Shown here one piece after another: positions 6,454-47,359 of a stretch of 64,000 bases of DNA. Location: NCBI GenBank assembly GCA_963678705.1, contig OY783213.1:186001-250000 (forward strand). The letters are read 5' to 3'. Within the stretch, counting starts at the first letter, position 1. Every line of letters begins with the position of its first letter. A program made the translations under genes and the position numbers. Source of the stretch: Panorpa germanica. Taxonomy: Eukaryota > Arthropoda > Insecta > Mecoptera > Panorpidae. Under the pieces are notes generated by a model that was not told the DNA's origin, did no database searches, and saw only the letters and a list, made by a program, of their open reading frames with translations.

Positions 6454-6457
6454 ATAT
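6454..6457. other. Target-site duplication ATAT, left
   Basis: ATAT precedes the 5' LTR and recurs at 13275-13278. An uninterrupted unit has a single ATAT here (ATATTATATAAATAC). Confidence 0.85.
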
Positions 6458-6661
6458 TGTTACGAATTTGCGGGCGTCTGAGGATACAAAAATTATAGTT
6501 ATAAACTAATAGCTGGAATTAGCAGAAAAGGTTGCTTATCCCTGCACAAATATCTAGACGTTTCGATAACGAGGCTGTTTACTAGTCGGCGCATAACTTC
6601 TACGCGTGTGTGTTCCTGGAAATGAACGTAAACAACTGCACTTGTGTTATTGTTTACATGT

Positions 6662-6674
6662 GAACGTTCTAGAA
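6662..6674. promoter_or_regulatory. Heat-shock-element-like motif 1 in gypsy U3
   Basis: GAACGTTCTAGAA is three perfect alternating units (GAA-2-TTC-2-GAA), the consensus for heat-shock factor trimer binding. It lies about 150 bp upstream of the TATA box. The 3' LTR copy is at 12830-12842. Confidence 0.6.
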
Positions 6675-6749
6675 CCAAATACTACGCGTATGGAGTGGAA
6701 CGTCATAGAACTAGACGGAAGGTCAAACAGCGTATTTGGATAATTATAG

Positions 6750-6762
6750 GAATATTCTAGAA
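6750..6762. promoter_or_regulatory. Heat-shock-element-like motif 2 in gypsy U3
   Basis: GAATATTCTAGAA is a second perfect three-unit motif, about 50-60 bp upstream of the TATA box, where promoter-proximal HSEs of heat-shock genes usually sit. A degenerate third copy (GAACGTCATAGAA) lies at 6698-6710. The 3' LTR copy is at 12918-12930. Confidence 0.65.
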
Positions 6763-6809
6763 AGTCAGAAGAGTCGTGATCAGGGGTAATCTGCTGCGTA
6801 AACCGCTAA

Positions 6810-6846
6810 TATAAAAGGAGCAAAGCATTGCGTCGCGAGTTCAGTT
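6810..6846 (+). promoter_or_regulatory. Gypsy core promoter: TATA box and initiator
   Basis: TATAAAAG at 6810-6817 and TCAGTT at 6841-6846 are about 31-33 bases apart, matching the arthropod TATA/Inr arrangement. This would set the U3/R boundary near 6843. Confidence 0.7.
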
Positions 6847-6948
6847 TTAACAACAGCAGTCAGACCGCAAGAAACATCAGCCAGTAAAACTAATAAGTAA
6901 AATAATAAACCGTAATAATTGTAAAGTAGTTGTAATTGTTTTTGTGTT

Positions 6949-6958
6949 AATAAATAAA
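6949..6958 (+). terminator. Gypsy LTR poly(A) signal
   Basis: Overlapping AATAAATAAAG about 105 bases after the initiator, suited to end the RNA in the 3' LTR copy (near 13117). Confidence 0.55.
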
Positions 6959-7108
6959 GTTTATAAAAGTGTCAATCCTTCTTTTAATTTGAATTGTGGC
7001 TATTTCTAAATATAAGTTACAACGCGACTAAATAGTGTAAACAATTGCTTCCGCTCGGCAATCAACTATAAAAGAACCCCGTCGTCGCACAAGTAAAATT
7101 GTAACATT

Positions 7109-7369: not shown

Positions 7370-8554
7370 ATGGAGGAAATGTTAAAAGAACTTAGAGAAA
7401 TGATGCTAGTGCAGGCCGAAAACACTAAAGAACAAAATGCAGATTTAAAACGAGAAATGCGGGAACAGAATACTAAGTTAGAAAAATTACAAGAAACATC
7501 TAAAGAAGACATATGCGAGAAGTTTAATGCGTTCCAAATGCAGTTGCAAGCTGTAGAAGAAGCTTGCAGAGGATCCAAAAAAGAACTAGAAATGCGTATA
7601 GATGATGTGGCACAAGTTCTTCAATCGGTAACCATTCGACAGGAGCTGACGGAGACGAAAATTCAGGAAATCGAAGAACGCGTAGAACTTGTCCAGAAAA
7701 ATGGGAAGCAACTAGCAGGAGCGCAGTTAACACAACTTGCCGATAGAGTGCAAGTTTTAGAAAACTCTCAAGGCTGCGTCAACTCTACGATTGCGAAAAC
7801 CAGCACTATCAAGCCAGCCCCCTACGATGGAACAATCTCTTGGCAGGAATATGAGGTGCAATTCACAGCCATAGCGGAGTTCAATGGCTGGAGTGACAGG
7901 GATTGTGCAGGCCAGTTAGCGGCCATGCTACGGGGTTCGGCTCTAATCGCTTTCCAAAATATGAACCCGGACGAGCGGCGTAGCTATACGGCTCTTAAAG
8001 CAATGCTAAGCCAGCGGTATGGGGAAGAAAGTCTCGCACCTCTGTACTGGGCGCAGCTGGTGAACCGGAGACAAGCTGCAGGAGAAAGGCTAGCAGACCT
8101 GGCGACAGATATCGAACGATTAGTAAACCGTGCTGCAGGCAAAGCCCCCAGGGACACACTAGGAAATTGGGAGGTACAATACTTCGCTAACGCTGTACGG
8201 GAGCGCAGAATAAAGGAGGCCATTTTATTGGCTAAGCCGAAGAACATAAACGAGGCCCTGGCCGCTGCGCTTCAAATGGAAACTGTCAGCCATATTCCCG
8301 ATGTGAGCCGTATAAGGAGCGCCACTACATCTCCCTCTCATACCAGCCCTACTATGGACGATCTCCTTAGGCGATTGGTGGACCTCGAAGAACGAAACCG
8401 GCACCGCTATAATCCAGGAATTTCAAGAGGTCGGCAATGGACTTACAACAGGGGAAGAAACCCACCTGTGAATGGTACAAGCTCGGAAAGAAGACCCTTG
8501 ACATCGGCTGTCAATGTGGATCGGCAGTCGGGAAACGGGTCGCAGGCAGCCTAA
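7370..8554 (+). CDS. gag: Gypsy gag polyprotein
   Basis: Structural protein of 394 residues that would assemble the virus-like particle around the element RNA. Residues 1 to about 130 are rich in heptad-like E/K/L runs (KELREMMLVQAEN, then ERVELVQKNGKQ) and should form coiled coils. About residues 140-310 resemble the retrotransposon gag capsid region: PYDGTISWQEYEVQFTAIAE, then ALKAMLSQRYGEE, then REKIKEAILL-like RRIKEAILLAKPKNINEALA. The C-terminal end is basic (RGRQWTYNRGRNPP); I see no CCHC zinc knuckle. The ATG at 7370 is preceded by CAACAAAA, a good insect start context. It overlaps pol by about 118 nt. Confidence 0.9.
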   Translation: MEEMLKELREMMLVQAENTKEQNADLKREMREQNTKLEKLQETSKEDICEKFNAFQMQLQAVEEACRGSKKELEMRIDDVAQVLQSVTIRQELTETKIQEIEERVELVQKNGKQLAGAQLTQLADRVQVLENSQGCVNSTIAKTSTIKPAPYDGTISWQEYEVQFTAIAEFNGWSDRDCAGQLAAMLRGSALIAFQNMNPDERRSYTALKAMLSQRYGEESLAPLYWAQLVNRRQAAGERLADLATDIERLVNRAAGKAPRDTLGNWEVQYFANAVRERRIKEAILLAKPKNINEALAAALQMETVSHIPDVSRIRSATTSPSHTSPTMDDLLRRLVDLEERNRHRYNPGISRGRQWTYNRGRNPPVNGTSSERRPLTSAVNVDRQSGNGSQAA

Positions 8555-11500
8555 CGGGGACAACTCTGCCTGCTGTTCCGATCAAGAGTCCCCACATTAC
8601 AGCAGTCGGAACAATAGGAGGAGTAAATAGGGGACCAAATGTGTTGGGATATATGGAAGACCGGCCATGCAAATTTTTGATTGATACTGGTGCTACGCAA
8701 TCACTAGTCGGATTGGAATTCATTAGACAACAAGAATTTACGAGGCAGATCATTGCACCAGCAGCTCCCATTGTATTGCGAGCAATTACTGGAGATACGG
8801 CACCCGTTTCCGGAAAAATCAAATTAAAGATCAGGTTAGGCCACATGATCCGAGACTTTATATTCCTCGTAGCATTAATAGAGGAAGAATGTGTTCTGGG
8901 TTACGATTGGATGTCCTCAATAAACTGCACAATTTTTCCAAGAGCTAACATTATACAAATAGGAAGAGACCGGCTCAAGTTGTTAAAAGATGACACTGAA
9001 GAAACTCTAAATATCAGAACGAGTATTACAAAAGACATACAGCCCTCAGATGATAAAGAAGTGACCCTTCCGAACCACCTACAGGACGTCTATGAGAAGT
9101 CAAATAAAAATTTAACTCTTGAAGAATCTCATGACCTGAAGATGGTACTACAAGACAACCAGGACATTTTTTCATCGGGAATAGAAGACGTGGGACACAC
9201 GACATTAGTGCAACACCCAATAAAGGTAGGAGACGCTAGACCAATTAAACAACCTGCACGAAGACTGCCATGGGGACAAGAAGAGGAAGTTGACGCCATG
9301 GTGGATCAAATGCTGCGAGACGGAATAATAGAACCCTCAACAAGTCCTTGGGCATCACCGATAGTACTAGTAAAGAAAAAAGACGGAACGAAGCGATTCT
9401 GCGTAGACTATAGGAGATTAAACGATGTCACGCTAAAGGATGCATACCCGTTGCCTCGTATCGATAGCCTTTTTAGTGTATTAAACGGGTCTAAATACTT
9501 CTCCACTCTTGATCTCCGGAGCGGATATTGGCAAGTAGAAGTAAAACAAGAAGATAGGGAGAAAACAGCGTTCACGACCGGGAAAGGTCTCTGGCAGTTT
9601 CGAGTAATGCCTTTTGGTCTATGTAATGCCCCCGCAACATTTGAACGATTAATGGATAGCGTCTTAAAAGACTTACCTCCGGGAACATGCCTCGTGTATC
9701 TGGACGACATAGTGGTGCTTGGCAAAGATGCTAGAAGCCAAATAGATAATTTGAAAATTGTATTTCAACGATTACGAACAGCAAACCTTAAATTAAACCC
9801 AAAGAAATGCAACCTTTGTGCCGAGCAAATAAGATATCTGGGACATGTCGTCACTAGAAATGGAGTATCTACGGACCCGGAAAAAGTGAAAGCTATTCAG
9901 ACCTGGCCGACACCCACCAACCTGTCGGAAGTGCGGAGTTTCCTTGGGTTATGTGCTTATTACAGAAAATTTGTTTCAAACTTTGCGAAGATTGCAAAAC
10001 CGCTGTATGAACTTACGGAGAAACCAACTACGAAGAGGCGACCCATTGTGTGGACACCATCATGTGAAGACTCGTTCAACCAATTAAAGGGAAAGCTTAC
10101 AAATGCACCGATCCTTGCTTTTCCCCAACGTGTAGGCGAATTTATATTGGATACGGATGCATCGCATACCGGAATGGGAGCAGTACTCTCACAAATACAA
10201 CAAGGCGAAGAATGTGTAATAGAATACTTCAGTAGGGTATTCTCGAAGGCCGAACAGAATTACTGTGTTACTCGAAAGGAACTACTGGCAGTCGTTAAAG
10301 CTCTAAAACAGTTTAGACACTATTTGTGGGGCCAGCCATTTCGAATTCGTACCGACCACGCTTCGTTAACCTGGTTAACAAATTTTAAGGAGCCTGAGGG
10401 ACAACTAGCACGTTGGCTACAACAGATAAGCGAATACCAGTATAAAATCGAGTACCGGCCAGGACGTCAACACGCAAATGCAGATGCATTGTCTAGAAGA
10501 CCATGTGCAACCAATGGATGTGACCACTGTGAACGTAAGGAGGCTAAACAGGAGCCCGAATGCGTACCCGATGAGGCAATACTTATACGACATACTCAAG
10601 TCTATTTACAAAACGGTCGATTACCTCTTAACTATGATGATGCCGAAAAATGGGATCCCGATACATTAGTAAAAGCAGAAATCAAAATGAGCATGGAATA
10701 CATCAGGGATGACCTATTCTTAGCACCCTCCGAATACGCGTTAGCCCATTGTGTCGCCGAAGACCTGCATATGAGTAAAGGTATTGCAGTAACATTCAAG
10801 GAGAAATTCGGAGATCTGAGAAAGCTTCGAGAACAACAAAGGAAGGTAGGAGAAGTTGCAGTTCTAGAAAAGGATGGAAGATTTATTTATTACCTGATTA
10901 CAAAACGGAGGAGTTCCGGAAAACCAACGTACCATGATCTATGGCAATCATTGGTATCACTACGAGAACACATCCTGCAGAAACAAGTAAAAAAGTTAGC
11001 CATTCCGCAAATAGGTTGCGGACACGATCATTTGACGTGGGCCCATGTAGAGCGTCTGCTGAGATACGTGTTCTACGATTTGGAGCTCAACATTCAGGTT
11101 TATATACCAGAACCAGTAGCAACCGTTCCCATAAGATACTTGACGCGGGCGAAGGCTAAAACCGAAGAAACTCAAGTAACAGAGAATAATGATTCGCCTC
11201 CACCTGCAGATAGCTCGATGCAAAGGACTGATCAAGCAGAAGATGAACTGGGTGACATCGTAGGTGAAGCACAGAAAGAAGATGAAGATCTGGCACTCAT
11301 TGCGGCATGGAAAAAGACAGGAATTAGACCTCAATGGCCAGAGGTATCAGCCTATAGTCCTCGTGTAAAAGAATATTGGTCTATGTGGAACTGTTTAGAA
11401 CTTCACGATGGAAGGCTATATCGGTTGTGGCATTTAGTAGACGACAGGCCACCCATTCGACAACTGATAGTACCTAATAAACTAGTCCCGGATATATTGA

Positions 11501-12582
11501 AACAAGTACACGATAGTTTCTCAGGTGGACATTTCGGGGTGCATAAAACACTAGAGAAGATACGGCAAAGGTGGTACTGGCCCCGTTGCGGAGCCTCAGT
11601 AAATCGTTGGTGTCGAAATTGTGACACTTGTACGGCCAGTAAAGGACCCCGGCAGAGAAATCGAGGACCTATGCATACCTACACGGTGGGAGCACCGTTC
11701 GAAAGAGTAGGAATGGACATTTTAGGACCACTGCCACGGAGCCGAACCGGCAATAAATACGTGTTGATCGTGGTGGATTACTTTACCAAATGGCCTGAAA
11801 TACTTCCTATCCCGAATCAAGAAGCGATTACAGTTGCAAAAGTCTTTGTGCAAGAAGTAGTATCGCGTTATGGAGTTCCCCGAGAGCTACATTCGGATCA
11901 AGGAAGAAATTTTGAAGCCGCCGTATTCCAACAGATTTCGAAACTTCTAGGCATGCATAAAACCCGAACTACACCATTACATCCGCAGTCGAACGGCATG
12001 GTTGAAAGACTAAATCGGACGATAGAGGAATACCTGACGAAATTTATCCATACTAACCAAGACAATTGGGACGAGTTGATACCTCTGTTTCTACTGGCAT
12101 ATCGGTCAGCGGTGCACGAAGCAACACGGCAGACTCCAGCCGCTATGCTAATGGGACGTGAACTCAGGTTACCCTGTGACCTGATGTACGGACCTCCTCC
12201 CGAAAGAAAGTTTAGTGGCAACGAAGAATACTGCGAAACCCTAGCGCAAGAATTAGAAAAAATCCACAAACTTGCGAGAGAACGCCTTCAGTTAGCGACG
12301 GATCGCTCGAAAACGCGTTATGATTGTGGAAAACAAAGTCAGCGTTTTTCCAGAGGTGATGCGGTATGGCTCTACTATCCTAAGAAGAAGATAGGACGAA
12401 GCCCTAAACTACAAGCCAAATGGGAAGGACCGTATTTAATATCGGCTGTCATTTCGGACGTGATCTACAAAGTGCAGAGATCAGCCCGAGGAAAATGCAT
12501 GATTGTTCACCGAGACCGACTCGCGAAGTACGAGGGTGAAAATGCTCCGGACTGGGAGTTAACGGAATCAGCCGCCCGATGA
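8437..12582 (+). CDS. pol: Gypsy pol polyprotein (protease, RT, RNase H, macrodomain, integrase)
   Basis: Long frame of 1381 codons lying in the -1 frame relative to gag, as in family members that express pol by ribosomal frameshifting; its first ATG may not be a real start. Protease: LIDTGATQSLV near residue 83. Reverse transcriptase: about 265-490 with DYRRLN, LDLRSGYWQ, MPFGLCNAP and YLDDIVV near 421. RNase H: about 560-690 with LDTDASHTGMGAVLSQ near 571 and NADALSRR at its end. Macrodomain: about 753-893. Integrase: zinc HHCC motif from about 1025, catalytic core with MDILGP near 1091, HSDQGRNFE near 1153 and VERLNR near 1190. A GPYLI/VHRDRL-type C-terminal domain lies near 1330-1365. No chromodomain is evident. 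Confidence 0.95.
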   Translation: MDLQQGKKPTCEWYKLGKKTLDIGCQCGSAVGKRVAGSLTGTTLPAVPIKSPHITAVGTIGGVNRGPNVLGYMEDRPCKFLIDTGATQSLVGLEFIRQQEFTRQIIAPAAPIVLRAITGDTAPVSGKIKLKIRLGHMIRDFIFLVALIEEECVLGYDWMSSINCTIFPRANIIQIGRDRLKLLKDDTEETLNIRTSITKDIQPSDDKEVTLPNHLQDVYEKSNKNLTLEESHDLKMVLQDNQDIFSSGIEDVGHTTLVQHPIKVGDARPIKQPARRLPWGQEEEVDAMVDQMLRDGIIEPSTSPWASPIVLVKKKDGTKRFCVDYRRLNDVTLKDAYPLPRIDSLFSVLNGSKYFSTLDLRSGYWQVEVKQEDREKTAFTTGKGLWQFRVMPFGLCNAPATFERLMDSVLKDLPPGTCLVYLDDIVVLGKDARSQIDNLKIVFQRLRTANLKLNPKKCNLCAEQIRYLGHVVTRNGVSTDPEKVKAIQTWPTPTNLSEVRSFLGLCAYYRKFVSNFAKIAKPLYELTEKPTTKRRPIVWTPSCEDSFNQLKGKLTNAPILAFPQRVGEFILDTDASHTGMGAVLSQIQQGEECVIEYFSRVFSKAEQNYCVTRKELLAVVKALKQFRHYLWGQPFRIRTDHASLTWLTNFKEPEGQLARWLQQISEYQYKIEYRPGRQHANADALSRRPCATNGCDHCERKEAKQEPECVPDEAILIRHTQVYLQNGRLPLNYDDAEKWDPDTLVKAEIKMSMEYIRDDLFLAPSEYALAHCVAEDLHMSKGIAVTFKEKFGDLRKLREQQRKVGEVAVLEKDGRFIYYLITKRRSSGKPTYHDLWQSLVSLREHILQKQVKKLAIPQIGCGHDHLTWAHVERLLRYVFYDLELNIQVYIPEPVATVPIRYLTRAKAKTEETQVTENNDSPPPADSSMQRTDQAEDELGDIVGEAQKEDEDLALIAAWKKTGIRPQWPEVSAYSPRVKEYWSMWNCLELHDGRLYRLWHLVDDRPPIRQLIVPNKLVPDILKQVHDSFSGGHFGVHKTLEKIRQRWYWPRCGASVNRWCRNCDTCTASKGPRQRNRGPMHTYTVGAPFERVGMDILGPLPRSRTGNKYVLIVVDYFTKWPEILPIPNQEAITVAKVFVQEVVSRYGVPRELHSDQGRNFEAAVFQQISKLLGMHKTRTTPLHPQSNGMVERLNRTIEEYLTKFIHTNQDNWDELIPLFLLAYRSAVHEATRQTPAAMLMGRELRLPCDLMYGPPPERKFSGNEEYCETLAQELEKIHKLARERLQLATDRSKTRYDCGKQSQRFSRGDAVWLYYPKKKIGRSPKLQAKWEGPYLISAVISDVIYKVQRSARGKCMIVHRDRLAKYEGENAPDWELTESAAR
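10690..11118 (+). other. TARG1/OARD1-like macrodomain inside gypsy pol
   Basis: Residues 753-893 of pol match the TARG1 (C6orf130) macrodomain family almost end to end: DDLF, ALAHCVAEDLHMSKGIAV, KFGDL, VGEVAVLEKDGRFIYYLITK, KPTY, IPQIGCGHDHLTW and a final beta strand IQVYIPE. This family binds ADP-ribose and removes it from proteins or O-acetyl-ADP-ribose. The residues equivalent to the human TARG1 catalytic Lys84 and Asp125 are present at pol residues 823 and 864. Such a domain is not a normal part of Ty3/gypsy pol. It occupies the linker between RNase H and integrase and is followed by a charged spacer of about 75 residues. The likely origin is capture of a host gene. The match is from memory of the human protein. 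Confidence 0.85.
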
Positions 12583-12625: not shown

Positions 12626-13274
12626 TGTTACGAATTTGCGGGCGTCTGAGGATACAAAAATTATAGTTATAAACTAATAGCTGGAATTAGCAGAAAAGGT
12701 TGCCCATCCCTGCACAAATATCTAGACGTTTCGATAACGAGGCTGTTTACTAGTCGGCGCATAACTTCTACGCGTGTGTGTTCCTGGAAATGAACGTAAA
12801 CAACTGCACTTGTGTTATTGTTTACATGTGAACGTTCTAGAACCAAATACTACGCGTATGGAGTGGAACGTCATAGAACTAGACGGAAGGTCAAACAGCG
12901 TATTTGGATAATTATAGGAATATTCTAGAAAGTCAGAAGAGTCGTGATCAGGGGTAATCTGCTGCGTAAACCGCTAATATAAAAGGAGCAAAGCATTGCG
13001 TCGCGAGTTCAGTTTTAACAACAGCAGTCAGACCGCAAGAAACATCAGCCAGTAAAACTAATAAGTAAAATAATAAACCGTAATAATTGTAAAGTAGTTG
13101 TAATTGTTTTTGTGTTAATAAATAAAGTTTATAAAAGTGTCAATCCTTCTTTTAATTTGAATTGTGGCTATTTCTAAATATAAGTTACAACGCGACTAAA
13201 TAGTGTAAACAATTGCTTCCGCTCGGCAATCAACTATAAAAGAACCCCGTCGTCGCACAAGTAAAATTGTAACA
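12626..13274 (+). repeat. Gypsy 3' LTR (649 bp)
   Basis: Same length as the 5' LTR and different only at two adjacent-region bases (GGTTGCTTATCC versus GGTTGCCCATCC). Confidence 0.95.
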
Positions 13275-13278
13275 ATAT
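13275..13278. other. Target-site duplication ATAT, right
   Basis: Right copy of the 4-bp duplication; the satellite continues in phase after it. Confidence 0.85.
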
Positions 13279-42764: not shown

Positions 42765-42969
42765 TGTTGGAATTACAATACATTCATTCTTAAATTAAAT
42801 TACTTAAACTTGTTTTGTTTTTGTTTATATAAAAAAAATATATTAAATTCAATTGTTTTATGTCTATAAGAAATATTGTCTGAGGACTTTCTGTATAATT
42901 TCAGTCTGAGGACTTATTAATTAATAAAATATTTAATATATAACTGTGCATATAATATCTGCTTCAATA
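42765..42969 (+). repeat. Copia 5' LTR (205 bp)
   Basis: Begins TGTTGGAATTAC and ends GCTTCAATA; the 3' end is TA rather than the usual CA, as fixed by the 5-bp target duplication. It contains TATATAAA near 42826, AATAAA near 42923 and an internal direct repeat of GTCTGAGGACTT near 42880 and 42904. Confidence 0.9.
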
Positions 42970-42981
42970 GGTTATGGGACC
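42970..42981. other. Copia primer-binding site
   Basis: GGTTATGGGACC directly follows the 5' LTR. It resembles the internal initiator-Met tRNA site (GGTTATGGGCCC) used by Drosophila copia, which primes from a tRNA half rather than from a tRNA 3' end. Confidence 0.7.
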
Positions 42982-43003
42982 AAGCTTTAATTAAAAAATT
43001 AAT

Positions 43004-45200
43004 ATGACGACATCAGTGAGTGCTACAAGATTTGAGCTGTTGAGTAAGGACAATTATGAAGCCTGGAAAATTCATGTTGAGGCGCTATTGATCAAAAATG
43101 ATTTGTGGGAATATGTCAGTGGTGAAAAACCGATTCCTGTTGCTGCGGAAAATAATCAAGAAGAAAGAAATGGATGGATAAAAATTGATCGTAAAGCTAA
43201 GTCAGAAGTAATATTAGCAATTAGTTCAACGGAATTGCAGCATGTCCGAGGTTGTAATACTTCTCATGAAGTTTGGCAAAAACTTGCCTCAGTTTATGCT
43301 TCCAAAGGACCTGCAAGAAAAGCTTTATTACTTAAGCAACTTATGCTTCACAAGATGTCTGAAGGTGGTGATGTCAGGGATCATGTAAACAAGTTTTCGG
43401 ATATAGTTGATCGACTTGGAGCTATGGATATTGAAGTGAATAAAGATTTATTGTCTGTAATGTTATTATATAGTCTACCAGATAGCTATGAAGGTTTTAA
43501 ATGTGCTATGGAATCACGTGATGAACTCTTGGAGGTTGAAGCTCTTAAGGTTAAGATACTTGAGAAGAGTGAAATTGGTTCAAATTCAGTTGTTGAGTTA
43601 GCTGGAAATGTATGGGCTGAAAATCAACCGAGTTACAAAAATATTTTTAAAGGATATTGTTTTAAATGTGGAAAACAAGGACATAAGTCTCCTGAATGTC
43701 CAACTCAATTGAAACCAAATTTCAGAAGAAATAGACCAGATAGACAGAATAGATACACACAAGAAAATAAATGTTCTCAAGCGGATGATGATACTTTTGC
43801 AGTATTTAATGTTGAATTTGCTGGTAGTGTTCCAAGTTGTCGACCTTGGATTCTTGATAGTGGCTGTACAACACATTTATGTGGTGATAAACAATTATTT
43901 AAGTCTTTAAATGAAGAAATTAGTGGGAAAATAAATTTGGCTAATCAAGCAAATAGTGAAATCAAAGGAAAAGGTACTGTTAATTTGTCGATTAGTAATG
44001 GTAAACAGCTGAGGTCAGTAGATTTTTCAAACACATTATTTGTACCAGATTTAAGGTCAAATCTAGTATCAGTTGCTAAAATTACTAATAAGGATCATGA
44101 AATTCTATTTAAAAAAGATTCAGCTGTAATTATGGATATGACTGGAAATGTTAAATTTGTTGCTGAAAGGCGTGGTGATCTCTATTATTTACAAGAAGGT
44201 AATGAAGAAGCTTGTATTGGAGAAGATAAAGCTAATTCTGAGTTATTGATGTGGCATTGTCGTATGGGTCATTTAAATGCTAAGGATTTATTTCGGGTGA
44301 TTAATCAGAATACTACAAGTAAAGTAACCTCTGAACAATTGAAATGTTTGTCAAGATGTGAAGTGTGTCTACGAGGCAAGATGACAGGGTTACCGTTTTC
44401 AGGAAGTGAACGACAGAGTGAAGAACTTCTTGAAATAGTTCATACAGATATTGTTGGACCGTTTAGGACACAATCAGTGAATGGAGCAAAATATTTTATT
44501 ACATTTATTGATGATTATTCTCGATGGTGTGAAGTATACTTTCTTAAACAGAAGAGTGGTGCACTAGAAGCTTTCAAAATGTATCAAAATCAAGCTGAAC
44601 GTATGACAGGGAAGAAGATTAAGTATCTTCAAAGTGATAATGGTAAAGAGTATTGTAATACTGAGATGGATTCTTTCCTGCGTAATCAAGGTATTCAACG
44701 TCGATTAAGTGTTGTAAGAACACCTCAGCAAAATGGTGTTGCTGAACGTTTAAATCGAACATTAGTTGAAATGGGACGATGTTTATTACTTCAATCAAAT
44801 TTATCGGATATGTTTTGGACTGATGCTGTAGCTACAGCATGTCATTTGAGAAACAGATGTCCTTCAAGAAGTATTAATGGAGATACTCCTTATCAGAGAT
44901 GGTTCAACAGGGATAAAGTTCATTTAAATTATTTACGAGCATTTGGATCAACTGTATATGTCTTAGATAAAGATCCAACAAAAGGCAAATTATCTGATAG
45001 ATCAATGAAAGGGATTTTTGTAGGTTATCCACGTGAATCAAAAGGATACAGAATTTGGTTACCAGAAAAGAGAAAATTTATTGTTGCTCGTGATGTGAAA
45101 TTTATTGAAGATAATGTTACTACAGTTTTAAAGAACCAAGAGATTAAACAGCTGATTATTAATGATTTTGAAAACAAGGATAAACCATGGATTGAATTGA
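43004..45200 (+). CDS. Copia gag, protease and integrase part (approximate span)
   Basis: First ATG at 43004 (AATATGACGACA). The gag region opens FELLSKDNYEAWKIHVEALL, the usual copia capsid start, and ends in a CCHC zinc knuckle (CFKCGKQGHKSPEC) near 43658-43699. The protease has WILDSGCTTHLC near 43850. The integrase zinc region has MWHCRMGHLNAKDL near 44250 and CEVCLRGK. The DDE core has VHTDIVGPF near 44440, QSDNGKEY near 44632 and GVAERLNR near 44740, followed by the FVGYPRESKGYRIW motif typical of copia integrase C-termini. Together these make the particle, mature it and insert the cDNA. Confidence 0.92.
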
Positions 45201-45399
45201 TAACAGGATTTAAAAATAGTAATGAGACAGAAACTTAAGATGGAATTCCAGAAGAAAATTTAGAAGATAATGAAGAAAATGAAAATTCATCTGGTATTCA
45301 ATCATCTATTCAAGAAACTCCTAGAAGAAACTCAAGAGAATATACTAGAGAAGAAAGAAGAGGACCAGGAAGACCAAAATTAATTAAAACAGGTTTGAA

Positions 45400-47125
45400 A
45401 GGACGTCCAAGAAAATTATTTTCAAAAGTTAATAATTGTGAAGTTAAAGAAAGGATTGAATCTGATTCTAATGAAGATGATAATGATAATGATAATATAT
45501 TTGTTGGAGTAGCTGAAGTTAAATTGGAAGATGCTATTAATTCTCAAGAGTGTGCTGAGTGGAAGAGAGCAATTAAATCAGAAGTCATAAGTTTATTAAA
45601 AAATGATACTTGGAATATTGTAAAATTACCTGAAGGTCAAAGTGTTGTGGGAAGTCGAATGATTTTAACAAATAAATTTGGATCAGATGGGCTTATTGAA
45701 AAAAGAAAAGCTCGTATTGTTGCAAAAGGTTATAGTCAGAAATATGGTATTGATTATGATCAAACTTTTGCTCCAGTTGCAAGAATGGAATCAATGAGAC
45801 TTTTAATTGCATTGTCTGTGGAATTAAAACTTGTAATAAGACAATTTGATGTTGTAACTGCCTATTTAAATGGAATATTAGAAGAAAATGTTTATATGGA
45901 AATACCGGATATGCTACATGAAATTTTGATGTGGATAATTGATGATAGTCAGGTGTCTGAAGAATTAAAAAATAAAGCTACAAAAATGTTAAAATGTATT
46001 GAAGAAGGAGGTGATGTTTGTAAATTAAATAAAGCTCTCTATGGTCTTAAACAAGCTGCTCGACAATGGAATGAAAAATTATCAAATAAGTTGGAAAGTA
46101 TTGGACTAAAGTCAACAAAAAAGGAGAGTTGTTTGTATTATACAAAACGTGGTAAAGATATTTTATTATTTCTAGTTTATGTTGATGATTTCTTAATTGC
46201 ATCATCAGATGTTGATTGGATTGATGAAATTAAAATTAAACTACAAGAAGAATTTGAAATTAAGGATCTAGGTCTTGCAAAACAATGTTTGGGAATAGAA
46301 ATTAATCAATCAGATCAATATATTTTTATTAATCAATCAAGATATATTATCAATTTACTTAAAAAATATGAAATGAATAATTGCAATCCAGTTAAAACGC
46401 CAGCAGAATTACAAAAGAAGAAAATATTTTATTCAACTGAAAAAGAAGAAATTAATAGTAAATTTTATAGAGAAGTTATTGGAGCACTAATGTATTTAGT
46501 GGTTGGAACTCGACCAGATATTGCAAATACTGTTTCAAGATTAGCTCAATTTGTAAACAAACCAAGTAAACAAGATTGGTTGGGAGTTAAGAGAATATTG
46601 AGATATTTAGCTGGTACAATAGAATTAGGAATACTTTATACTAAAGAAACAAAATCTATGATTGGATACTGTGATGCTGATTGGGGATGTTGTCTTGAAG
46701 ATCGAAGATCATATTCTGGATATGTATTTATGTTGGCAGGGGGTGCTGTGAGCTGGAAATCTCAAAAACAAAGAACTGTGGCACTTTCATCTACTGAATC
46801 AGAATATGTTAGTTTATCAGAAGCTGTAAAAGAAGCAATATATTTAAATGATTTATTGACTGAACTAGAGCAAGAAAAATTTTTGCAAATTAAAATATTA
46901 ATTGACAATCGTGGAGCTGAACAACTGGCAATGAACTCGATTTATCATGCACGTACAAAACATATAGATATTCGTCATTATTTTGTTCGTGATGTAGTTG
47001 ATGAAGGAATTATTAAATTACGTCATGTATCAACTAATGAAATGGTTGCGGATATTTTAACAAAAGCACTGCCAAGAGAGTTACATGAAAAATTCACTGA
47101 AGGATTGGGACTTCAAATTATTTAA
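45400..47125 (+). CDS. Copia reverse transcriptase and RNase H part (approximate span)
   Basis: Reverse transcriptase of the RVT_2 type: EWKRAIKSEVISLLKNDTW near 45558, ARIVAKGYSQKYGIDYDQTF, FDVVTAYLNG, LYGLKQAARQWN and the catalytic YVDDFLIA near 46180. A ligand-like GTRPDI motif and LRYLAGT follow. RNase H has YCDADWG near 46668, LSSTESEYVSLSEA and the final HIDIRHYFVRD and VADILTKALP motifs. It is AT-rich in codon use. The coding sequence ends 29 bases before the 3' LTR. Confidence 0.92.
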
Positions 47126-47145
47126 ATTGTTGAAATGAATGTCTT

Positions 47146-47152
47146 GAGGGGG
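47146..47152 (+). other. Copia polypurine tract
   Basis: GAGGGGG lies just before the 3' LTR, separated from it by TG. Confidence 0.7.
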
Positions 47153-47154
47153 TG

Positions 47155-47359
47155 TGTTGGAATTACAATACATTCATTCTTAAATTAAATTACTTAAACT
47201 TGTTTTGTTTTTGTTTATATAAAAAAAATATATTAAATTCAATTGTTTTATGTCTATAAGAAATATTGTCTGAGGACTTTCTGTATAATTTCAGTCTGAG
47301 GACTTATTAATTAATAAAATATTTAATATATAACTGTGCATATAATATCTGCTTCAATA
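47155..47359 (+). repeat. Copia 3' LTR (205 bp)
   Basis: Identical by eye to the 5' LTR over all 205 bases. Confidence 0.9.

Follow-up and report, generated by a model that had tools for sequence, protein, structure and literature searches.

A TARG1-type macrodomain in the pol frame of a Ty3/gypsy retrotransposon family of Panorpa germanica

The 64,000-nt stretch of Panorpa germanica DNA analyzed here (the window; contig OY783213.1, positions 186,001 to 250,000) contains a Ty3/gypsy retrotransposon, referred to together with its family as F1, whose pol frame carries a macrodomain of the TARG1/OARD1 type between RNase H and the integrase (IN). The domain is recognizable by its near full-length similarity to human TARG1 and by retention of the catalytic residues, and it recurs in other elements: the macrodomain is a shared, constrained module that occupies three pol positions in several Ty3 families. 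A first-pass annotation made from the letters of the window had described such a domain in a young, open element and had raised the possibility of a role against host ADP-ribosylation. The follow-up presented here bore out the description of the domain and of its setting and places it among related elements, the TARG1 gene of the host, and known carriers of macrodomains.

Identity of the F1 macrodomain

The segment at 10690..11118 (+ strand, as for all stranded features given below) is translated without a stop, and matches to PDB and Pfam entries place the core of the macrodomain at 10696-11103. In a phmmer search of the PDB, residues 3 to 138 of the 143-residue segment aligned with residues 9 to 144 of the 146-residue chain of human TARG1 (4j5r_A; 148 bits, E=1.2e-42), in agreement with the near full-length match that had been claimed. 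The five best of the 9 PDB matches listed were all human TARG1, which rules out the MacroD-type class of viral macrodomains (Mac1); the next match was an Appr-1-p processing domain protein (E=7.7e-07), and no viral macrodomain was among the 9 listed for the F1 segment. The profile search that the first-pass annotation had proposed gave a divided answer, since the segment on its own reached the Pfam Macro profile (22.2 bits, cut-off 22) but the whole F1 pol stayed under the cut-off (16.7 bits, range 774-874). With the curated profile this marginal, the F1 domain would tend to go unnoticed in standard Pfam scans.

The equivalents of K84 and D125 of human TARG1 are K72 (codon 10903..10905) and D113 (codon 11026..11028), and their spacing of 41 residues is equal to that of the aligned pair in the human protein, so that the claim of two conserved catalytic residues stands. 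Both were kept in 30/30 F1 loci read; these loci had the highest scores among 151 matches, and the conservation applies to such best copies. In the human enzyme K84 is the nucleophile and D125 resolves the intermediate, according to excerpts of PMC9967889. The F1 domain also has the GCG-x-D loop, as cellular TARG1 does. Its identity is 50% to human TARG1 and to the Tribolium protein, 44% to the macrodomain of the host's own TARG1, 57% to P0007, and 51% to P0005. In a BLASTP comparison with the related pol of P0006, F1 residues 71-704 aligned with P0006 residues 106-789 and F1 residues 926-1370 with P0006 residues 791-1236; the macrodomain lies in the 221 residues between the aligned pieces (10549..11211), to which nothing at the RNase H-IN junction of P0006 corresponds.

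Copies and selective constraint

A domain confined to this single copy would have suggested chance recombination or an assembly chimera, and that situation is excluded by the rest of the genome. The macrodomain query returned at least 151 matches in the 464-Mb assembly (596 candidates, 150 scored), and a macrodomain match lay no more than 2.5 kb downstream in 65 of 65 F1-type reverse transcriptase (RT) matches (at least 74% identity; best 150 of 1748 candidates), which rejects a single-copy chimera. Copies of F1 are present on many contigs, most of them at one offset from RT (841 nt, or 1269 nt on the other strand). Among the macrodomain matches listed, 6 rows have identical amino acids and 18 rows have a 1389-aa open frame; two of the rows, on contig C10, represent one duplication.

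Omega was obtained from 25 of the 30 F1 loci (L010, L016, L017, L018, and L030 were dropped for indels), and here as in the families below each value is summed over pairs of related copies, which makes the values non-independent and descriptive. Omega was 0.128 for the macrodomain (0.035-0.302), 0.070 for RT-RNase H, 0.181 for IN, 0.191 for the linker before the macrodomain, and 0.725 for the linker after it (0.366-1.578), and in 0/2000 codon bootstraps was the value of the latter linker as low as that of the macrodomain. Mutations that arise after insertion raise omega, and the low value for the macrodomain is therefore meaningful. The F1 macrodomain is under constraint.

Structure, age, and surroundings of the F1 element

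The element spans 6817 bp and is bounded by long terminal repeats (LTRs) and a 4-bp target-site duplication, ATAT, found at 6454..6457 beside the 5′ LTR and at 13275..13278 beside the 3′ LTR (no strand assigned). The LTRs at 6458..7106 (TGTTAC...GTAACA) and 12626..13274 (TG...CA ends) are 649 nt long and differ at 2 of 649 sites, which together with the duplication agrees with the earlier description of a young element from a recently active lineage. A gag-like open reading frame (ORF) of 394 aa at 7370..8554 has a weak Retrotrans_gag match (E 0.071). The pol ORF at 8437..12582 (1381 aa from the first ATG, in a frame open from 8413) runs without a stop through the macrodomain, as had been stated; its start overlaps the gag ORF in another reading frame, from which we infer a frameshift.

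A Pfam scan of this ORF identified RT (RVT_1, 9370..9849, pol residues 312-471, E 3.1e-36), RNase H (RT_RNaseH, 10138..10437, residues 568-667, E 3.8e-36), the integrase zinc-binding domain H2C2 (11470..11643, residues 1012-1069, E 2.5e-21), the integrase core rve (11695..11985, residues 1087-1183, E 3.4e-12), and likewise the C-terminal part of IN. The RT-RNase H region matched the RT of yeast Ty3 (4ol8) at an E of 2.5e-92. The order PR-RT-RNase H-IN of Ty3/gypsy elements (Metaviridae) is present in F1 pol, though weakly for the aspartic protease (PR), which is below its Pfam cut-offs. No env is present downstream of F1 pol, whose stop (12582) and the 3′ LTR (12626) are only 43 nt apart, and this gap rules out the errantivirus-like, env-bearing class for F1.

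The surroundings of the element are a satellite array with units of ~1,103-1,107 nt, 95-100% identical to one unit, which fills nearly the whole window except for the F1 element and one other insertion. A copy of F1 13.5 kb upstream (1 difference in 3429 nt compared) is part of a duplication of the satellite array and so is no independent insertion. The second insertion in the window (42765-47359) has ORFs at 43004-45238 (744 aa) and 45395-47125 (576 aa) and a strong GC skew, and its portion at 44600-45200, read from the letters rather than by profile search, looks like a Ty1/copia integrase. Rfam had no match within the window.

Macrodomains in other Ty3 elements

Six further families of macrodomain-bearing Ty3 elements from the same genome, for which the names F2 to F7 were coined in this analysis, differ in the place and the preservation of the domain. 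In F2 (L033-L036, with frames of 1571-1638 aa, and L045, with 1288 aa) it lies between protease and RT, and K and D are present in 5/5 long-frame copies read. Omega from these five copies was 0.300 for the macrodomain, 0.492 and 1.214 for the flanking linkers, and 0.085 for RT-RNase H; with nine copies, decayed ones included, the macrodomain value was 0.393 (0.179-0.933). The domain is between RNase H and IN, with K and D kept, in F3 (L037, whose pol is not a single open frame), F4 (L039), and F5 (L041), and the macrodomains of these three families are 30-31% identical to that of F1. After the macrodomain-bearing F4 pol, a 626-aa env ORF of the Baculo_F type (L039:1945-3822) matches at an E of 6.8e-61; by its sequence the F4 element of L039 is an errantivirus-like element with a macrodomain.

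The two remaining families have degenerate domains. That of F6 (the second element of L041, L047, L048, and L052) lies between RNase H and IN and scores 71-81 bits against a profile built from the other element macrodomains; omega from four copies was 0.143 for the macrodomain (0.072-0.257), 0.081 for RNase H, and 0.173 for IN. That of F7 (L057, with part in L056) lies between protease and RT, and in L057 it scores 32.4 bits, compared with 13.7 for the best of 2000 shuffled sequences. Other relatives have no significant macrodomain by profile, either in the RNase H-to-IN part read of L049, L050, and L051, which are three of the six rows of the F3-F5 group, or in the pol of L055; long open frames are present in all four.

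Beyond this genome, the P0006 pol carries its macrodomain after IN. Its record is filed under the fungus Erysiphe pulchra, and its macrodomain is sister to those of two Macrosteles quadrilineatus proteins named "OARD1-like" (65-66% identity, support 100/100), which leads us to infer that the record represents insect contamination. P0009 and P0010, annotated in M. quadrilineatus as "ADP-ribose glycohydrolase OARD1-like," have a macrodomain and upstream flank nearest to those of P0006, and their sequence looks less like host TARG1 than like the end of a retroelement pol frame. P0005 is a 2280-aa RNA-virus-like polyprotein with an RNA helicase, an RNA-dependent RNA polymerase (RdRP), and, at its C terminus, a TARG1-type macrodomain that has K and D. 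Protein searches gave 5 matches among 305 candidates with the pol region, 0 among 148 with the F4 macrodomain, and 6 among 21 with P0001; in viral contigs P0001 gave 5 pattern matches, 0 of which were confirmed.

Host TARG1 and the number of captures

The host has a TARG1 gene of its own on contig C19. Three exons, whose borders read GT-AG by eye, encode its macrodomain, and a second domain comes after it, which is also the case in the beetle proteins P0003 (Tribolium) and P0004 (Brassicogethes). Fusion to a further domain is found in the insect TARG1 genes P0002, P0003, P0004, and L054:6743-8350; in the host this domain has a weak score against the macrodomain profile. Unlike host TARG1, the element macrodomains are intronless, which is expected if they were captured through RNA. 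A PARP profile matched 10 places in the host genome. At 34.9-39.8 Mb of contig C21 there are five matches to the PARP catalytic domain, of which four lie in frames open for 361-521 aa, and a PARP-like gene expansion in the host is possible from these sequences.

A midpoint-rooted tree of RNase H and IN with 14 rows joined F1 and P0006 as sisters (100/100) even though the domain is at different places in the two. One larger group comprised F2, F7, F1, P0006, and L055, which has no macrodomain (100/99), and another comprised F3-F5 and the likewise macrodomain-free L049-L051 (93/91). A single clade of macrodomain bearers (10 rows versus 4) was rejected on the RNase H and IN data (p 2e-48). The minimum number of changes on this tree was 5 for the position of the domain and 3 for its presence, counts from which alone gain and loss are not separable.

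The flanks just upstream of the core were alike (0/500 shuffles reaching the score) for host-F2, host-F7, F2-F7, F3-F5, F3-F6, and P0006-Macrosteles; five more pairs were reached by 1-5 of 500 shuffles, where ~1 is expected by chance among 105 pairs. The upstream flank of F1 resembled none of those compared among these 105 pairs. Positions and flanks, rather than the macrodomain tree, thus suggest about four captures, namely one for F2 and F7, one for F3-F6, one for F1, and one for P0006 and its kin, and the source of the capture in F2 and F7 may be read as a TARG1 gene of the kind that the host itself has. So simple a count is at odds with the RNase H and IN tree, where F6 stands apart from F3-F5; the flank common to them would then require either that the insertion is older and was lost in places or that elements exchanged sequence. 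A recent capture of the F1 domain from this host is not supported by the identities given above, which are lower to host TARG1 (44%) than to human or Tribolium TARG1 or to P0007, although a tree holding F1 and host TARG1 together was not rejected (approximately unbiased [AU] test, p 0.16). A clade of the F1-F5 macrodomains was likewise not rejected (p 0.122).

A possible role against host ADP-ribosylation

On balance we lean toward the reading that the F1 macrodomain is a pol-borne ADP-ribosyl hydrolase that acts against host ADP-ribosylation. The similarity to human TARG1 with its K/D pair, the constraint, the presence of the domain at every F1-type RT match, and the several placements speak for it, as do the intron-bearing TARG1 gene and the PARP-like matches of the host. 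A Ty3/gypsy lineage would have acquired the intronless coding sequence of a cellular TARG1 (OARD1) into the spacer between RNase H and IN of its pol, and synthesis of Gag-Pol would then bring the domain into particles and into the reverse-transcription and integration complex in the same amount as RT and IN. To judge from the residues retained, the lysine would attack ADP-ribose attached to acidic side chains or to terminal phosphates, the intermediate would be resolved by the aspartate, and the domain would clear mono-ADP-ribose added by the host from element proteins, RNA, cDNA ends, or nearby host factors. According to excerpts of PMC8053099, TARG1 strips mono-ADP-ribose from acidic residues and from the terminal phosphates of double-stranded DNA and single-stranded RNA, and viral RNA that carries ADP-ribose is suggested as a possible target of viral macrodomains. 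Carried in pol, the domain would be placed where RNA, cDNA ends, and IN come together, and the natural substrate could be the ADP-ribosylated ends of element RNA or cDNA. The different placements in related elements hint at repeated uptake, possibly as a means of removing a tag that the host uses against them. More tentatively, ADP-ribosylation might be a standing insect defense against Ty3/gypsy elements, which would have acquired host TARG1 on about four occasions, at three pol sites, and in some lineages later turned it into a conserved, noncatalytic binding module.

A number of observations weigh against a hydrolase acquired in this way. The F6 macrodomain retains neither the catalytic Asp nor the GCG loop, yet its omega is as low as that of F1, and catalysis is therefore not the sole property under selection. 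In F7 the Asp position reads Glu (by eye), and the catalytic Asp is gone; the F4 copy L040 has its catalytic K changed to N; and in the F5 copy L041a the GCG loop before the Asp is altered, with K and D still in place. The F2 macrodomain is less constrained than the RT or IN of F2. The Pfam Macro profile had no match at E up to 0.01 in the pols of F2, F4, and F5, for which the macrodomain calls come from BLASTP and from a profile made in this analysis. The phylogeny with host TARG1 genes that the first-pass annotation had recommended for locating the capture was run, but the macrodomain tree does not resolve the sources, and a single clade of all element macrodomains was not rejected (AU p 0.08 and 0.115 in two runs, the second with row F5_L041b swapped for F6_L052). 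An enzyme-only reading is too narrow in view of F6 and F7, which lack the catalytic Asp and of which F6 is constrained, and for their domains a binding or structural role seems likelier from the sequence.

Such a role might hold for the macrodomain more generally, with the domain serving as a reader, tether, or architectural part that binds ADP-ribose, poly(ADP-ribose), or nucleic acid, or that spaces RNase H from IN, and that thereby guides the complex to chromatin or sites of damage while hydrolysis is incidental. We regard this as unlikely but as the chief rival of the hydrolase reading. The profile scores of F6 (71-81 bits) and its omega of 0.143 in four copies without Asp or GCG loop speak for it, as does the still detectable domain between PR and RT of F7, and inactive macrodomains that bind mono-ADP-ribosylated targets are known from viruses and cells, macrodomains 2 and 3 of ARTD8 among them (excerpts of PMC4695847). 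However, conservation of K and D in all 30 F1 and all 5 F2 copies read goes beyond the needs of a spacer, the placement varies (PR-RT, RNase H-IN, and after IN) in a way that is not predicted for a spacer or tether bound to IN, and half of the rows in the F3-F5 group manage without the domain. It is also conceivable, but improbable, that the domain strips mono-ADP-ribose from host silencing factors at chromatin and not from components of the element. SIRT6 mono-ADP-ribosylates KAP1 in mammals and thereby silences L1 (excerpts of PMC4695847), and TARG1 is chiefly nuclear (excerpts of PMC8053099), but a pol-borne enzyme would be scarce and would be made after transcription.

A neutral passenger, captured by chance and riding with a successful family, would fit the long open frames of L049, L050, L051, and L055, which manage without a detectable domain. 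The omega contrast disfavors it and makes it very improbable, with low values in F1 and F6 and an F2 macrodomain value under those of its linkers, and the several placements and the presence of the domain at every F1-type RT match argue in the same direction. We give practically no credence to an assembly chimera or a misread host gene: nothing but the single 13.5-kb duplication that accounts for both C10 copies speaks for it, whereas copies are found on many contigs, mostly at the same RT offset, the LTRs and target duplication are in place, and host TARG1 lies elsewhere, bears introns, and has a macrodomain 44% identical to that of F1.

RNA-virus macrodomains antagonize ADP-ribosylation, in vertebrates that by interferon-linked PARPs, and insects are to our knowledge animals without interferon. 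If the preferred reading of the F1 domain as a pol-borne hydrolase is true, ADP-ribosylation would bear on retroelements too, and in animals that lack the interferon system. The substrate preference of the hydrolase would point to the mark placed by the host, and the genome offers a natural series of macrodomains that are intact, altered, degenerate but conserved, or absent.

Comparison with known systems

The first-pass annotation knew of no described retrotransposon system of this kind, which holds in part. No Ty3/gypsy macrodomain was described among the papers listed in searches of the open-access literature (titles and the starts of abstracts; subscription papers and bioRxiv were outside the scope). 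Fish endogenous retroviruses, however, have ORFs with macro domains (Basta et al. 2009, as cited in excerpts of PMC4977317). Like F1 these are reverse-transcribing elements with a macro domain, but in those excerpts they are epsilon-like, belong to ray-finned fish, and have the domain in additional ORFs, whereas that of F1 is an insert in pol. With cellular TARG1/OARD1 (C6orf130), of the ALC1-like class, F1 shares the near full-length alignment, the K/D pair, and the GCG-x-D loop; it differs in being embedded in a retrotransposon pol, in being intronless, and in its 44% identity to the TARG1 of its own host. The macrodomains of positive-strand RNA viruses (coronavirus, alphavirus, and hepatitis E virus) are also inside a replication polyprotein and would reverse host mono-ADP-ribosylation; the F1 domain differs from them in being of the TARG1 type and carried by a retroelement. 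The RNA-virus-like polyprotein P0005 has, like F1, a TARG1-type macrodomain with K and D, C-terminal in P0005 and 51% identical to that of F1, but it combines this domain with an RNA helicase and RdRP, with no RT reported, whereas F1 carries it in the pol of a reverse-transcribing element.
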